Part shown: positions 7,975 to 15,553 of the stretch, piece after piece
Layout: each line of letters begins with the position of its first letter
How positions within the stretch are numbered: position 1 is the first letter of the stretch
Source: Alphaproteobacteria bacterium
Lineage (GTDB): Bacteria > Pseudomonadota > Alphaproteobacteria > CAAGCB01 > CAG-977
Direction: 5' to 3'
Assembly (NCBI GenBank): GCA_017616015.1
Contig: JAFZYY010000001.1
Span: forward strand, 124,001 to 188,000
Length of the DNA: 64,000 nucleotides
Notes under the pieces: generated by a model
Told to the model about the DNA's origin: nothing
Database searches by the model: none
What the model saw: the letters and a program-made list of their open reading frames with translations, nothing else
Made by a program: the position numbers and the translations under genes

Positions 7975-8049
<75 letters not shown>

Positions 8050-9007: not shown

Positions 9008-9814
9008 ATGAAGCGTTTTTTACCGGTTATGCTCTTTTTATCGCTTCTTTTTCCGTTTCGGGGAAAGGCGGACGATTCTCTTTTATGCCTGAAAGAGGCC
9101 GTGCGTTTGGAAAAAAGGGAACGAATTCAGAAAAATCTTTTAAGCGCGATTGCTTTGGTGGAAAGTGGGCGGTATTCCAAGCAGTATCCGACGGGTGTGT
9201 CGTGGCCGTGGACGGTGACCGCGGAAGGAAAGGGGCAGTTTTATCCGTCTAAAGAGGAAGCTTTGGCAGCGGTGCGTGATCTTCAAAGCAACGGCATCGA
9301 AAATATAGACGTTGGCTGCATGCAGATTAATCTGAAGTATCACCCGAACGCTTTCGACAGTTTGGAGGACGCTTTCAATCCGGCAAAAAACGTGGCGTAT
9401 GCGGCGGATTTTTTGAAAAAGAACTATCAGGAAACAAAATCCTGGGGGGAAGCCGCGACACGCTATCATTCCAAAAACGTCCGCAAAGCCTTCAAATACG
9501 AAGACAAGCTTCTGGAAACATGGAACCGCCTGGCTAAATACGGCAATCCGGCCGATCCAACGCAAGTCGCTCAAATCAAAGACATTTCCAAAGAAACCGT
9601 TGAAAAAATAAATAGAAAAATCCGGCAGATAAAACAAAAAAACTCAATAAAGCCCGTTACGACAATCAAACCGGGATCTGAGGAAGGGCGGAAAATGGCC
9701 GCTCAATGGCGCAAAGAAAAACTGGAAGAATATATGGCCAGGAAAAAAGCCAAGCCGGTCAGCGAACCTATTTTTGAAGATGCGGAACCAAAAGTGGAAA
9801 AAGCAGAAAATTGA
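9008..9814 (+). CDS. Secreted lytic transglycosylase (SLT domain)
   Basis: A signal peptide (KRFLPVMLFLSLLFPFRGKA) precedes a VirB1/SLT-type domain. The putative catalytic glutamate is E49 in AIALVESGR, and the VGCMQINLKYHP segment (about 101-112) and the ATRYHSKNVRKAF segment fit the family. Such enzymes cleave the glycan strands of peptidoglycan, producing 1,6-anhydromuramic ends, and can open passages for secretion machines. The tail after about residue 185 is Lys-rich and low complexity. It is probably co-transcribed with the preceding amidohydrolase (4-bp gap). An 88-bp gap with a promoter separates it from the RNase J-like module. Confidence 0.85.
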   Translation: MKRFLPVMLFLSLLFPFRGKADDSLLCLKEAVRLEKRERIQKNLLSAIALVESGRYSKQYPTGVSWPWTVTAEGKGQFYPSKEEALAAVRDLQSNGIENIDVGCMQINLKYHPNAFDSLEDAFNPAKNVAYAADFLKKNYQETKSWGEAATRYHSKNVRKAFKYEDKLLETWNRLAKYGNPADPTQVAQIKDISKETVEKINRKIRQIKQKNSIKPVTTIKPGSEEGRKMAAQWRKEKLEEYMARKKAKPVSEPIFEDAEPKVEKAEN

Positions 9815-9902: not shown

Positions 9903-11597
9903 ATGGCTTCGACAAAAAATTCTGAACCGGGGTTGTATTGGACACCTAAAGGCGGCAATAACCATGAGGCAATGTTCGCCAGTTGTCATAATTATACTTC
10001 CGTAACAAAGGATAAAGAAACCGGAAAAGTCAGCAAGACGACAATCCTGATTGACATGGGGCAAAATGAAGATCCAAAAGATTTTGCCGATGGCGTATAC
10101 CAAAAGGTCGTTCCCGCGTTAACGGATTGTCTGGCCATACCGGGACAGCCCGAGCCGGAGGAGCCGGCGGCGGCTATTTTCCTGACGCACAGTCATTCGG
10201 ATCATATTGACGCTATTTTCGAATATGTCCAAATGGGGGTGGAGTTACCGCCGATTTACGGGACGGAATATACAATTAACGCCTTAAGAGCCGAATTCAT
10301 AAAACGTCAGATTCCGGTTCCCGAAGGTCTTGAAATGAAAACCGTTGAAGCCGGAGATACGATTGAAATCGGAAATATGAAGGTAGAGGCTTTGGCCGCT
10401 TCTCACAGCATTCCCGGGTGCTTGAGTTTCAAGCTGTCCAATGAAGAAGTATCCGCTTTTCATTCAGGCGATACAAAATCCGATCAGACCTCTTCTTTAG
10501 GGGACGGACGCGGTGTCAGTCTGGACGCGTATCGCGCCATGGAAGGCGTCGATTTCGCCGTTTGGGACGGCGCTATGGCAAACAGAAGCGGTCATTCAAC
10601 CAGCGAGGCCGGCGCAAAGGAAGAATATAAAAAAATATTCGAAGATAAAGCTAATGAAGGCAAGCAAATTATCGTTGCAATGCCGGCGGCTCATTCGCAG
10701 AGACTGGCTTCCGTCATAGCGGCGGCGGCTGAAGCGGGAAAGCACGTTATTATTAACGGCGGCGCCACAATGGAAATAAACTATGTGGCGTTAGGGGATA
10801 ACGGCTATGATTTGCAGGAAAAATATCCCGATATTACAATCGCTACAGCAGGATCTGATGAGGCGCAAAAGATTAAGCCGGAAGATTGCATAACCATTAC
10901 TACCGGCATTTACGGCGAAAAAAATTCTCCGTTTGTTAAAAAGTTACAGGGACTTGATGACAGTTTTGTTCTACGGGACGATGCTGTTATCGTTTCCCCC
11001 GCCGTCGGCAAGGCTGTCAGCGAACGTGAAAAAATCGAAGACCTTTTGGACGGGTATATAGAGAAAGACCCCGACCATCGTTCCGGAATGAAAATTATTA
11101 CTGCTGAAACTGTCAAAGGAATCGGTTCAAGCGGTCATGCCCAGCACGATGATTTTTTCCAGGATCTTTTGCCGGCTTTGAAGGCGAAAGTGAATGTGCC
11201 TACACATGTCGGGTCCGCCAAAAAGGCTGAGCGATTCATGCAGGAGCTGCGAGACGCAGGATACGGAACTCTGTCCGAATATCCGCGCAACGGATATACG
11301 GTTCAGGTGACAAAACAAGGGTGTCAGATCGTCGCTAAAGAAGAAGTCAAATGGATCGGAGCAAAGTACTCCAAGAAAAAAGATAAAGACGGAAACGACG
11401 TGTTGGATAAACAACTCAGTTGGAGTGTTGAAGACGATCACGGATTTTCTACGGGAGATTTCCGTCAGGATAACGCCAGAAAAAAAATTAAAGAATGGCA
11501 GCAGAAAAACAGTCAGGGAAATAATCAGGATAAGGGAAATAATCAGAACAACGTGAATTCGTCGATAATAAAGGATATAAAGAGAGATGGTCGATAA
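9903..11597 (+). CDS. RNase J-like metallo-beta-lactamase/beta-CASP protein, copy 1
   Basis: This 564-residue protein has the metal-binding HSHSDH at residues 96-101. That is followed by LPPIYGTEYTINAL, HSIPG around 168 and HSGDTKSDQT around 186, each of which resembles RNase J at the corresponding positions. Later beta-CASP-like motifs are GHAQHDD (from 411) and VPTHVGS (around 433). RNase J enzymes are RNA exo/endonucleases. This protein is highly divergent, so RNA cleavage is an inference. The N-terminus starts GGNNHEAMFASCH, which is also present in the second copy at 12032. The tail is Asn/Gln/Lys-rich. Its stop overlaps the start of the following IscX-like gene by 11 bp, indicating translational coupling. 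Confidence 0.75.
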   Translation: MASTKNSEPGLYWTPKGGNNHEAMFASCHNYTSVTKDKETGKVSKTTILIDMGQNEDPKDFADGVYQKVVPALTDCLAIPGQPEPEEPAAAIFLTHSHSDHIDAIFEYVQMGVELPPIYGTEYTINALRAEFIKRQIPVPEGLEMKTVEAGDTIEIGNMKVEALAASHSIPGCLSFKLSNEEVSAFHSGDTKSDQTSSLGDGRGVSLDAYRAMEGVDFAVWDGAMANRSGHSTSEAGAKEEYKKIFEDKANEGKQIIVAMPAAHSQRLASVIAAAAEAGKHVIINGGATMEINYVALGDNGYDLQEKYPDITIATAGSDEAQKIKPEDCITITTGIYGEKNSPFVKKLQGLDDSFVLRDDAVIVSPAVGKAVSEREKIEDLLDGYIEKDPDHRSGMKIITAETVKGIGSSGHAQHDDFFQDLLPALKAKVNVPTHVGSAKKAERFMQELRDAGYGTLSEYPRNGYTVQVTKQGCQIVAKEEVKWIGAKYSKKKDKDGNDVLDKQLSWSVEDDHGFSTGDFRQDNARKKIKEWQQKNSQGNNQDKGNNQNNVNSSIIKDIKRDGR

Positions 11598-11838
11598 TCA
11601 GGATTGGAATAACGTTCAGTTTTGGGCCGCGGAGCTTGATAAAAAATATCCCCGGACGAATTTGATTTCTTTGTCGAATCAAAAATTGACGGAAATGATT
11701 CTTTCTCTGGAATCCGCAAAAGGTATGCCGGCATTGCCGCAGGATAAGGTTTACTATTTCGCTCTTAAATCGGCGTGGGTAATCGTTCAGCACGGCGGCG
11801 TTGACGATTCGGGCGATGTGCCGGACGCTTATATTTAG
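11587..11838 (+). CDS. IscX-like small protein, copy 1
   Basis: This is an 83-residue acidic protein. The pattern W-x5-W-x3-L-x3-YP...L...A-x-W, with about 42 residues from YP to the last Trp, closely parallels IscX (YfhJ), a frataxin-competing regulator of Fe-S cluster assembly. It ends in a distinctive DVPDAYI. The ribosome-binding site and start lie inside the end of the RNase J-like gene. By hand alignment about two thirds of positions are identical to the second copy at 14132, far more than between the two partner hydrolases. IscX relatedness is a motif-level inference. No isc or suf genes are present nearby. Confidence 0.65.
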   Translation: MVDNQDWNNVQFWAAELDKKYPRTNLISLSNQKLTEMILSLESAKGMPALPQDKVYYFALKSAWVIVQHGGVDDSGDVPDAYI

Positions 11839-11960
11839 AGGATTGATTTTGTTTTTGTCATTACAGGAGCTTGTTGTAATCAAAGAGGATAATGAGAACG
11901 TCGGAACTTAGCAAATTCTTGTTGAAATGCAAAAACGGAAACAGCAAAAGAACGGATAAA

Positions 11961-11988
11961 TTGTAATTTTTTATGTTACGGATTATAA
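11961..11988 (+). promoter_or_regulatory. Promoter of the second module
   Basis: TTGTAA (11961-11966) and TTATAA (11983-11988) are separated by 16 bp. A 15-bp perfect palindrome follows immediately (next entry). Confidence 0.5.
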
Positions 11989-11994
11989 CCAGAG

Positions 11995-12009
11995 GATATT
12001 CAGAATATC
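11995..12009. promoter_or_regulatory. 15-bp palindrome, candidate operator
   Basis: GATATTC-A-GAATATC is perfectly symmetric and would lie at about the transcription start of the second RNase J-like gene, 22 bp before its ATG. No matching palindrome was seen upstream of copy 1. Confidence 0.4.
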
Positions 12010-12031
12010 TTTAGCAAAAGAGGGAACGAAT

Positions 12032-14059
12032 ATGACAACGGAAAAATATTTGGAATATATGTCTTTCGGCGGTAACAATCACGATGCGATGTTCGGCAGT
12101 TGCCATAGAATTACGGCCGGAGCGATAGATAAGGAAACGGGCGAAGAAAAGAAAACCGTTGTCATTTTCGACTGGGGAAAGAATGAAGCTCCGGAAAAAT
12201 TTGCAGGCGGTCAATACGATGTGGTCGTGCCGGATTTGTCCAAACATGTTCCCATGCCCGGTCAAGAAAAACCTGAAGAATTAGCCGAAGCTATAGTTTT
12301 ATCGCACAGCCATTCGGATCATATCGGCGGTTTTGAAGAATATTTGGAAATATTATATGTCGAGCACAGAAGAATAGAAGATCTTAAACGCTCCGGAGAT
12401 CCGTCTTATGATGCGGAAGCACGTAAATTTCAGGAACTGATAAAAAGTGTTCCCCCTATATACGCTACGCAAGATACCATAAACGCTATTGAAAAGGATA
12501 TGGTTGGCCGGCGCAAAAAATATTATGATCCGAAAGGCAGAGGGGATATCGTTACCGAGCTTCAGGCGTTGGGACTTCGTTTCGGTACGAAAGAACAGAC
12601 GATAGAACCCGGAACCGAACTTTCATTTGGTTCAAACGGAGAATTGAAAGCGAAAATTACAACCGCGGCACATTCCGTGGAATCTGTCGGTATGGCATTC
12701 CACAACGGTGAATCTTTCGGTTTGATTACAGGTGATACCAAAGTGGTGGTTCAATCCGAACTTGATGATTTCGGTAAAGGACTGCCCCGGCAGATTCTCG
12801 TAACTGATGCGGCGCATCGGCATAAAAAAGGCAAGCCGACAACCGACCAACAAATGGTCGACCGCACGATGCAATTTGCTGAAGAGCATGATGGCCAACC
12901 GCTTCTTTTCGTCTTGCCTGCCTATCATGCGGCCGCGCAAAAGCTGATTATCGACGCGCTGATTAAAAGCGGCAAAAAAATAATAGTCGACGGCGGTCCC
13001 GGTATGCAACAGTCTGTTATGTCTTTCGTGGAGAATAATCCTGAATACGGCAAGTATGTTTTTCCCGCCGGCAGCGAAGAAGCCAAACGTCAGGAAGCGG
13101 AAGATGAACGTCAGGGAAAATTCGGCGATACGGTTTATTTTACCACGGGTCTTTATAATTCTGATGCAGAAAACTCTTTGCTTGTAGCCGCAATGAGAGG
13201 GGAAAGAGATTTAAGACCGGGCACTGTTGTTTTTGCTTCCGCTTTTGGTAAAGAAGACGATGTATGGGAAACCTTTACCGATTTCGTTCGCGAAGGAGAA
13301 AAAAACGGAAAATGTAAGGGAATGGAGTTTTATACGGCTCAAGAAATAAAAATCTCGCCGACAATAGAAACAGAAGCTATACCTGAAATGGCCTCCAGAG
13401 GACACGCCAATGGTGAAGAATTCGATCTGATATGCGAGAATAACGCGGAAAAAGGAAAGACCATCGTTGTTTGTACTCATGCCGAAATTGTTCCTGAAGT
13501 AAAAGATAAAAAAGGAAATGTAATTCAGGCCGGGCACGATTACTATCAGGAAGCCAGAGAACATGCGGAAAGCCTTGGTTATTGCGCTCCGGCTATCCAC
13601 AACGGAACAGTGATTCGGGCAACAAAAGACGGTGTCGCTGTTGACGGAAAACGAACGGAAAAAGTCGGTTGGTTGGCTGTTGAGCATCTGTGCCACTATG
13701 ATGTGCAGCGAGATAAAAAAGGCCGCCTTAAAAAAGATGAAAAAGGTTATTTCCGTTATAGCAAAGGGATCGGGAAAATAAAAAGAATCACACATGAAAC
13801 GGATCATGGTTTCTCTTCAGAGGGTAAATCGGTCGATGAAGAAAAAAGCGATGAAATCAATAAAGAAGAAGTCAAGAAAAAAACCAAAAAAGCTAAGAGA
13901 GATGCCGCGGTGAGAGCTACGGGAGGAAAACAGGAACCTGTGTCGAATAAAGGGGCGCGGGCTACGATGAAAAAGCTGTTCGGTTTTATGAAAAAGGACA
14001 GTTCTTTCGATAAAGCCTATAAAGAAAAGCTGAAAGATGCTAAAGGCAAGAAAAAATAA
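12032..14059 (+). CDS. RNase J-like metallo-beta-lactamase/beta-CASP protein, copy 2
   Basis: This 675-residue paralogue of the 9903 gene shares the GGNNHDAMFGSCHRIT start, then DKETGEEKKTVVIFDWGKNE. The metal motif HSHSDHIGG begins at residue 92. HSVES, ITGDTK and GHANGEE (from 457) correspond to RNase J-like positions, and VVCTHAE probably serves as the later His motif. It is about 110 residues longer than copy 1, with an insertion after the metal motif (VEHRRIEDLKRSGDPSY) and a Lys-rich tail from about 590 (KEEVKKKTKKAKRDAAVRA). Such basic tails often contact RNA or DNA. It has its own promoter and is followed by its own IscX-like gene 72 bp downstream. Substrate is unknown. Confidence 0.75.
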   Translation: MTTEKYLEYMSFGGNNHDAMFGSCHRITAGAIDKETGEEKKTVVIFDWGKNEAPEKFAGGQYDVVVPDLSKHVPMPGQEKPEELAEAIVLSHSHSDHIGGFEEYLEILYVEHRRIEDLKRSGDPSYDAEARKFQELIKSVPPIYATQDTINAIEKDMVGRRKKYYDPKGRGDIVTELQALGLRFGTKEQTIEPGTELSFGSNGELKAKITTAAHSVESVGMAFHNGESFGLITGDTKVVVQSELDDFGKGLPRQILVTDAAHRHKKGKPTTDQQMVDRTMQFAEEHDGQPLLFVLPAYHAAAQKLIIDALIKSGKKIIVDGGPGMQQSVMSFVENNPEYGKYVFPAGSEEAKRQEAEDERQGKFGDTVYFTTGLYNSDAENSLLVAAMRGERDLRPGTVVFASAFGKEDDVWETFTDFVREGEKNGKCKGMEFYTAQEIKISPTIETEAIPEMASRGHANGEEFDLICENNAEKGKTIVVCTHAEIVPEVKDKKGNVIQAGHDYYQEAREHAESLGYCAPAIHNGTVIRATKDGVAVDGKRTEKVGWLAVEHLCHYDVQRDKKGRLKKDEKGYFRYSKGIGKIKRITHETDHGFSSEGKSVDEEKSDEINKEEVKKKTKKAKRDAAVRATGGKQEPVSNKGARATMKKLFGFMKKDSSFDKAYKEKLKDAKGKKK

Positions 14060-14131
14060 AAAACTGTTGATCCGAAGCAGAAAATTCGAAGTTAAAAGGC
14101 AGGCTTTTATTAGTCTTGGGAGGAAAAGTTT

Positions 14132-14380
14132 ATGGCTGATGAATATGATTGGTTTTCTCTTGATTTTTGGGCGGAAGAATTAGAGAAAAAATATCCGTCG
14201 ACGAACTTATTTTCTTTATCCGATCAAAAGCTTTCAGAAATGCTTCTTTCTTTAGAAGCCGCAAAGGGTATGTCTGCGTTGCCGACAAAGAAGTCTTATT
14301 TTTCCGCGTTGCGTTCAGCCTGGACCGTTGTTCAATACGGGGGAGATGACTCTAAAGACATTCCTGACGCGTATATCTGA
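14132..14380 (+). CDS. IscX-like small protein, copy 2
   Basis: This 82-residue acidic protein is very similar to the 11587 protein. The shared core includes FWA-E-L-KKYP-TNL-SLS-QKL-EM-LSLE-AKGM and the same DIPDAYI ending. A strong GGAGG lies 8 nt before the ATG. It follows the second RNase J-like gene. The IscX-like spacing of Trp, Tyr-Pro and the final Trp is retained. The conserved C-terminal PDAYI extends beyond the usual IscX length of about 66 residues and may be a docking tail. Confidence 0.65.
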   Translation: MADEYDWFSLDFWAEELEKKYPSTNLFSLSDQKLSEMLLSLEAAKGMSALPTKKSYFSALRSAWTVVQYGGDDSKDIPDAYI

Positions 14381-14407: not shown

Positions 14408-14454
14408 TGTGGCATTCTTTTCCCTGAATGAAAAAATGAGGGAAAAATGCCACA
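14408..14454 (+). promoter_or_regulatory. Hairpin occluding the glucokinase ribosome-binding site and start codon
   Basis: The left arm at 14408-14425 (TGTGGCATTCTTTTCCCT) pairs with the right arm at 14439-14454 (AGGGAAAAATGCCACA), forming about 16 pairs with a two-base bulge. The right arm contains both the GAGGGA ribosome-binding site and the ATG at 14447. Confidence 0.65.
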
Positions 14455-15424
14455 TCGTTTTATGGGATTGATTGCAGATATCGGCGGAACGAATGCTCGC
14501 TTTGCTTTATGTTCCGATGAAGGAGAAATTCTTTCTCCTCTGACTTTGTTATGTCGGGATTTTCCGTCTTTGGAATTGGCCGTAAAAGCCTATCTGGAAA
14601 AGATTGAATATCGCGGGCCGGCGATTAAACGGGCGGCGTTTGCCGTGGCTTGTCCCGTTTTGGGAGACCGGATTTCGATGACGAACAGCGATTGGAGCTT
14701 TTCCGTATCGGAAGTAAAAAGCGTCCTCGACCTGGACAGTCTGGACGTCGTAAACGATTTCGTCGCGCAGGCGCTGGCGGTTCCGCTGCTTAAAGAAAGC
14801 GAAAAATTAAAAATCGGGCAGGGCGAAGCGACGAAAGGCTTCCCGATTGTCGTCGTCGGGCCGGGTACGGGACTGGGCGTGTCGATTCTGGTGCCGCAGC
14901 CGGACGGACAGTGGATCGCCGTGGCCAGTGAAGGCGGGCACGCGACGATGCCGGCGCCGTACCCCGAAGAAGAACGGGTCATCGCGGCTTTGCGTCAGGA
15001 ATACGGTCACGTTTCCGCGGAGCGCGTCGTTTCCGGCATGGGGCTGACGAATTTATATAAGACATTGCTTGTTTTGCACGGACGGGAAGGACTTTCTTTG
15101 GAACCGCAGGACATTTCGCGCCGCGCGTTGGAAGGCGATGATTTATGCCGCGAAGCCGTACAGATGATGTTCGGTTTGCTCGGCACTTTGGCGGGCAATC
15201 TGGCGTTGACGGCGGGGGCGTTGGGCGGCGTTTATATTGCCGGCGGCATTATTCCGCGCGACGGATTGTTGGAAATGTTCATGGAATCTTCCTTCAGAGT
15301 CCGGTTTGAAGCGAAGGGACGTTTCGCGTCTTACCTGTCGAGGATTCCGACGTATGTGATGATTTCGGATTATCCGGCTTTTCTGGGGCTGTCGGGTTTG
15401 GTTCGAAAAAACGTCAATAAATAA
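14447..15424 (+). CDS. glk: Glucokinase
   Basis: Glucokinase phosphorylates glucose to glucose-6-phosphate using ATP. The N-terminus carries the phosphate-binding IADIGGTNARFAL, then VNDFVAQALAVP with the catalytic Asp environment, VVGPGTGLGVSIL and the HATMPAP-containing segment characteristic of the bacterial Glk family. The length of 325 residues is normal. The start at 14447 follows GAGGGAAAA. A second in-frame ATG at 14462 would also give a typical Glk start but lacks a ribosome-binding site. The initiation region is buried in a long hairpin, suggesting post-transcriptional control. The gene is flanked by tRNA-Asp downstream. Confidence 0.93.
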   Translation: MPHRFMGLIADIGGTNARFALCSDEGEILSPLTLLCRDFPSLELAVKAYLEKIEYRGPAIKRAAFAVACPVLGDRISMTNSDWSFSVSEVKSVLDLDSLDVVNDFVAQALAVPLLKESEKLKIGQGEATKGFPIVVVGPGTGLGVSILVPQPDGQWIAVASEGGHATMPAPYPEEERVIAALRQEYGHVSAERVVSGMGLTNLYKTLLVLHGREGLSLEPQDISRRALEGDDLCREAVQMMFGLLGTLAGNLALTAGALGGVYIAGGIIPRDGLLEMFMESSFRVRFEAKGRFASYLSRIPTYVMISDYPAFLGLSGLVRKNVNK

Positions 15425-15475: not shown

Positions 15476-15553
15476 GGGGGTGTAGCTCAGTTTGGTTAGA
15501 GCGACGGCCTGTCACGCCGTAGGTCGCGGGTTCGAGCCCCGTCACTCCCGCCA
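15476..15553 (+). tRNA. tRNA-Asp(GTC)
   Basis: The sequence forms a cloverleaf with acceptor GGGGGTG/CACTCCC (one G-U), D-arm GCTC...GAGC, anticodon arm ACGGC-CTGTCAC-GCCGT with anticodon GTC, T-loop TTCGAGC, discriminator G and encoded CCA. Confidence 0.95.

Follow-up and report, generated by a model that had tools for sequence, protein, structure and literature searches.

Why should a gene resembling iscX be found next to a gene for an RNase J-like nuclease, and why twice in direct succession? Among the products of the isc operon, IscX has long been puzzling; its function is described as unknown, and the literature has held that it occurs in dependence on IscS (PMC5801593). The question is raised by a stretch of 64,000 nucleotides (nt) of alphaproteobacterial DNA (contig JAFZYY010000001.1, positions 124,001 to 188,000), here called the window. 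Its list of open reading frames (ORFs) contains two tandem pairs, each consisting of an IscX-like gene preceded by a gene that encodes an RNase J-like beta-CASP metallo-nuclease (Table 1). The ORFs and alignments confirmed the initial annotation, which had described two neighbouring large/small pairs with the motifs HSHSDH, HS[IV], GDTK and GHA in the large proteins, a PDAYI tail in the small ones and an overlap of the genes in the first pair. With ORF starts assigned mechanically, the overlap between large1 and small1 is 11 nt, and an identical overlap of this type was found in all 7 genomes of the genus (7/7), allowing for start choice in one of them (G001). The small proteins, said to agree at about two thirds of positions, are 67% identical and both end in PDAYI, whereas the large proteins are indeed divergent, with 28-33% identity as well as insertions and a basic C-terminal tail in large2. 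Scans of the module for promoters and terminators yielded no more sites than were found in shuffled sequence.

Table 1. Coordinates of the features discussed (window positions unless a locus or contig is named).
Feature	Position	Strand	Description
large1	9903-11597	+	564 aa; type A RNase J-like metallo-beta-lactamase (MBL)/beta-CASP protein
small1	11587-11838	+	83 aa; acidic, IscX-like
large2	12032-14059	+	675 aa; diverged tandem copy of large1
small2	14132-14380	+	82 aa; IscX-like
SLT transglycosylase neighbour	9008-9814	+	
Glucokinase-like neighbour	14447-15424	+	named by reading the sequence, not by profile
Type B and f3 loci beside type IV secretion system (T4SS) genes	L295 (G004:C9:5000-24500), L298, L102/L297		
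C-terminal-end examples (PDAYI, EAYT, WDAYT)	window 14132-14380; L101 5351-5614; L302 2970-3218		

The large proteins were analysed with profiles, alignments and structure prediction. In Pfam, large1 matched Lactamase_B_2 (54 bits) and RNase_J_b_CASP (29 bits, cut-off 27), while large2 matched Lactamase_B (30 bits). The sequence of large1 also matched RNase J chains in the PDB, and its AlphaFold model (mean pLDDT 88.6) had RNase J structures as top PDB matches (E 6e-30), the best being 4xwt, 4xww and 5a0t. This is in agreement with the proposed RNase J-type beta-CASP fold. Scores for RNase J itself stayed below the curated cut-offs, with 110 bits for large1 and 20 for large2 against TIGR00649 (cut-off 400) and 90 and 12 bits, respectively, against RnjA (cut-off 820). 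The zinc-ligand positions are kept in large1 (HSHSDH 96-101, H168, D190, H435), and pairwise alignment showed that large2 keeps HxHxDH, the motif-3 His, the motif-4 Asp and the motif-C His. More generally, the module proteins keep residues that align with the zinc-binding residues reported in M. tuberculosis RNase J (PMC10119312). Within the first-phosphate pocket, SGH (positions 410-412 in large1) is kept in nearly all module proteins aligned. The serine of the SSR motif, which contacts the first phosphate, is replaced in all of them, so that 5'-end recognition by the module nucleases may differ from that of RNase J. Further, the C-terminal domain profile PF17770 (RNase_J_C) matched none of ten module nucleases (large1, large2 and eight others; 0/10) and was found in a canonical paralogue (L063) with 44 bits.

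In case of the small proteins, small1 gave a weak match to the Pfam IscX profile (19 bits, cut-off 25) and small2 gave no Pfam match. Close relatives from modules of types B and C, introduced below, exceeded the cut-off of this profile (PF04384) with 32-51 bits. The model of small1 (mean pLDDT 81) had convincing PDB matches only to the E. coli IscX structures 1uj8 (prob 0.99) and 2bzt (prob 0.96), with Foldseek E-values that are modest because the protein is short. The IscX identity suggested earlier is secured by these above-cut-off relatives, by the fold and by alignment to E. coli IscX, for which the reference sequence is possibly inexact. Profile, alignment and fold together rule out a likeness to IscX by spacing alone. 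With pI values of 4.1-5.0, the small proteins are acidic without exception. Alignment showed that the acidic FDD loop of IscX is mostly lost in type A, while a DFDD-like acidic loop is kept in type B and most type C proteins. Their C-terminal tails read DAYI in type A and mostly ID in type C, and in the tree the module small proteins form a single clade separate from canonical IscX (99/95).

A search of the window genome with the IscX profile returned two better-scoring IscX genes on other contigs, each separated by 16 nt from another RNase J-like gene downstream, so that this genome carries two additional pairs. The survey was extended to the family of the window (f1; 12 genomes), which contains 43 RNase J-like genes or fragments. 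An IscX-like gene adjoins 31 of the 43, on the same strand and at a distance of -47 to +72 nt. The remaining 12 comprise 11 canonical RNase J genes (one a fragment) and one gene that ends at a contig end (G008:C73); no paralogue without an IscX-like partner was found among the 43. Viewed from the other side, every IscX-like gene in the examined loci (33/33, two of them in G013) adjoins an RNase J paralogue. The pairing was seen in 12/12 genomes of the family and is therefore not due to chance; a chance or single-genome feature was likewise ruled out by its presence throughout f1 and in further families. The models and this survey thereby exclude all three findings that the initial annotation had named as fatal to its proposal, namely a missing beta-CASP domain, a missing IscX-like fold and confinement to a single genome. 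In the tree of large proteins, canonical RNase J forms one clade (100), type A a second (99), and types B and C group together (98). Gene order follows these types, with large then small in type A and small then large in types B and C. One genome that is 98% complete (G002) yielded no canonical RNase J in our search and three IscX-paired paralogues only.

Beyond the family, we surveyed 385 evenly sampled alphaproteobacterial genomes, 77 of which have an IscX-like gene. Pairing with RNase J was observed in six families, f1 and those represented by G013 (f3), G061 (f51, with two module loci), G080 (f70), G110 (f100) and G227 (f151). At least two of these five genomes belong to other orders, and G013 and G227 are each the sole genome of their order in the collection. 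Recurrent adjacency in other lineages, which had been put forward as support for a module, was thus observed. None of the other inspected IscX loci has an RNase J-like neighbour, and these look like ISC operons: an ISC-type ferredoxin ORF lies near 89/95 canonical IscX loci (a total that also covers loci of the phylum-wide sample and counts a few genomes twice) compared with 0/27 module loci. In the phylum-wide sample, the window genome aside, an RNase J-like neighbour was seen at 0/28 inspected IscX loci, some of them alphaproteobacterial. When contigs of named genomes were searched, small2 gave no match, and the alignment of large proteins gave at least one module locus among the matches listed. 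Viral contigs were rejected as carriers of the module, a scan having given three weak partial matches only. No paper on an RNase J/IscX pairing was found in the open-access literature searched, in line with the earlier statement that no such system had been described; a description elsewhere is possible. Extra RNase J-like paralogues that have no IscX-like neighbour were noted at L105 (G058), L107 (G049) and L230 (G176); the genomes concerned gave neither an IscX nor an IscU match.

Orthologues were compared within each type. Median identities for large/small proteins were 47/37% for type A, 83/78% for type B and 58/38% for type C, and the small protein was the more conserved one in 10/55, 16/45 and 0/28 comparisons, respectively. 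Among orthologues, the large protein is thus usually better conserved than the small one. The idea that the small partner is the more constrained part is therefore true for the window duplicates only, where the contrast arises because large2 diverged fast after a tandem duplication found in the window genome alone.

Since the small proteins resemble a component of the isc operon, we analysed the Fe-S assembly genes of the same genomes. In the canonical-IscX genomes compared, IscU is encoded about 3.6-3.9 kb upstream. In f1, NifU_N/IscU was found above cut-off in 0/12 genomes, the NifU_N profile matching at a uniform level of about 20 bits over only part of its length, in a longer ORF, and IscS was also found above cut-off in 0/12. 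SufBD is encoded in all f1 genomes and a SufS-type desulfurase is present. G000 and G003 additionally encode a desulfurase of the NifS type (about 355 bits; IscS cut-off 643). With SUF present and neither IscU nor IscS above cut-off, the small proteins are therefore probably detached from ISC, and the f1 IscX-like proteins probably do not serve ISC Fe-S assembly. Outside f1, no IscU match was found in G013, G061 and G080, although completeness is only about 80% for G013 and G080. In G110, a genome with 10% contamination, a NifU_N protein exceeds the cut-off with 68 bits. Because all assemblies are drafts, such calls of absence depend on completeness.

These results do not support the control by iron that had been derived from the Fe-S role of IscX. 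In a rival explanation, the IscX-like protein would still bind Fe(II) by its acidic face, or would bind a cysteine desulfurase, and switch the nuclease by iron supply. E. coli IscX binds iron weakly via the same acidic face that binds IscS (PMC5801593), and both the acidic loop of type B and most type C proteins and the presence of SUF with a SufS-type desulfurase would fit such a switch. However, the lack of IscU and IscS above cut-off in f1 and the loss of most of the acidic loop in type A speak against it, and the operons hold nothing indicating iron. We thus consider a switch responding to iron or Fe-S status unlikely.

The neighbourhoods of the modules were compared across genomes. Type A loci in most of f1 share the order N-formylglutamate-amidohydrolase-like gene, SLT transglycosylase gene, module and glucokinase-like gene, where the first and last names come from reading the sequences; the glucokinase-like gene is the kept downstream neighbour of most type A loci. 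The SLT gene adjoins the type A module in f1, in G013 and, judged by gene order, in G061. In G013, it is followed by the small and then the large gene, and the order has therefore been flipped at an otherwise matching locus. In G061, a diverged small ORF follows the nuclease at the type A locus, and the type B locus has the three upstream genes of f1 type B. With type A synteny common to f1, f3 and f51 and type B synteny common to f1 and f51, the paralogous modules are shown to be vertically inherited with conserved synteny.

Type B modules stand at the end of a series of conserved genes of unknown function, next to genes that encode a TrbL-like protein and a T4SS coupling protein, and one f3 module adjoins CagX/VirB9- and VirB10-like genes. 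This could indicate a secretion pair in which the small acidic protein chaperones a nuclease exported by the T4SS, all the more as chaperone and cargo commonly come as a large protein with a small acidic neighbour. Yet the T4SS association is limited to type B and the single f3 module, and the wider T4SS run is known from one genome only (G004). A partial profile search recognised no T4SS genes near types A and C, and paralogues are present at conserved loci in every genome. Export of the nuclease thus appears improbable. Mere operon company, meaning co-transcription of genes whose proteins do not interact, would be compatible with adjacency as the sole functional link observed. We judge it very improbable, given that the link is kept in each of the three lineages of paralogues, with either gene arrangement, at loci that are unrelated and in more than one taxonomic order, while the small gene never accompanies the canonical RNase J encoded by these genomes. 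Least probable of all is a toxin-antitoxin or phage-defence pair: the closeness or overlap of two genes, of which one encodes a predicted nuclease, and a marginal PADLOC match to LmuA for large1 only (E 0.0011) would suit it, but inheritance is vertical with conserved synteny, the pairing is fixed in 12/12 genomes with several diverged copies in each, phage and plasmid records gave only distant RNase J-like matches (about 25% identity) and thus no module, and neither a patchy or mobile distribution nor defence neighbours were found.

The explanation that we favour, and regard as somewhat probable, is that of a specialised RNase J paralogue combined with a dedicated acidic IscX-fold subunit or regulator, with the IscX-like protein no longer on ISC duty. 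The module nuclease would be a zinc-dependent beta-CASP ribonuclease that lacks the usual C-terminal oligomerisation domain. The two proteins would be made side by side, their genes being closely spaced or overlapping. The IscX-like protein would then bind the nuclease and set its oligomeric state, substrate access or activity in the role of a modulator or accessory subunit, whereas bulk RNA turnover would be left to the one canonical RNase J that each genome encodes. The operon-like pairing was observed and the folds are predicted; beyond these, we infer a physical complex, a direction of regulation and RNA as the substrate. The last 60 residues are net basic in most module nucleases, which, together with the acidic small proteins, may be compatible with binding and is no proof of it.

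Several points count against an adaptor role of the small protein. Adjacency can reflect co-regulation without contact, and gene order flips between types. The above-cut-off NifU_N protein of G110 is a further such point, as is the NifS-type desulfurase of G000 and G003, which IscX could in principle still bind. In addition, although the C-terminal domain affects how several RNase J homologues oligomerise (PMC7864078), M. tuberculosis RNase J lacking this domain is still dimeric and active (PMC10119312), so that loss of the domain need not create the need for a partner. An extension of the subunit reading, which we advance tentatively and as falling short of probable, is a class of two-subunit beta-CASP ribonucleases. 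After ISC loss, RNase J paralogues that had lost their oligomerisation domain would have captured IscX as an obligate regulatory subunit, and duplications of the pair would then have given the three conserved modules, which would act on different RNA targets.

The module can be set against several known systems. With RNase J (RnjA/RnjB; PF22505 and PF17770; TIGR00649), the module nucleases have in common the MBL and beta-CASP fold, the zinc-ligand positions and SGH. They differ in scoring far below the cut-offs, in the absent RNase_J_C match and lost SSR serine, in always being accompanied by an IscX-like gene and in being additional to the canonical RNase J. The small proteins share fold, length, the W...YP...W pattern and acidity with IscX/YfhJ (PF04384, TIGR03412), whereas their genes lie outside the isc operon and they have their own C-terminal tails and a separate clade. 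Firmicute RNase J1/J2 are similar in that several paralogues per genome have divided roles and different oligomeric states (PMC7864078). There, J2 associates with J1, while the module paralogues are each paired with an unrelated small protein instead. RraA and RraB are protein regulators of RNase E. RapZ is another protein that tunes this enzyme (PMC7430671). By analogy, these three would resemble the module in logic only, a separate protein tuning a ribonuclease; the nuclease and the folds are different.

IscX-fold proteins thus persist in this lineage without IscU or above-cut-off IscS, each tied to an RNase J paralogue, which allows the role of this fold in binding to be examined separately from ISC assembly. 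The constant pairing where most of the ISC machine was not found suggests a new control of RNA processing and makes the IscX-like proteins a candidate new mode of control for RNase J-type enzymes.

Three minor observations concern the ends of the small proteins and the surroundings of the modules. A C-terminal end of the form D/E-A-Y-[IT], which E. coli IscX does not have, is common to small proteins of distant families. In the window, tRNA-Val (7975-8049) and tRNA-Asp (15476-15553) flank a 7.4 kb segment containing the module and its syntenic neighbours. In G227, an AAA_30 helicase-like gene (L302, 243-2045) lies upstream of the module and, by reading of its sequence, resembles the helicase part of conjugative relaxases.
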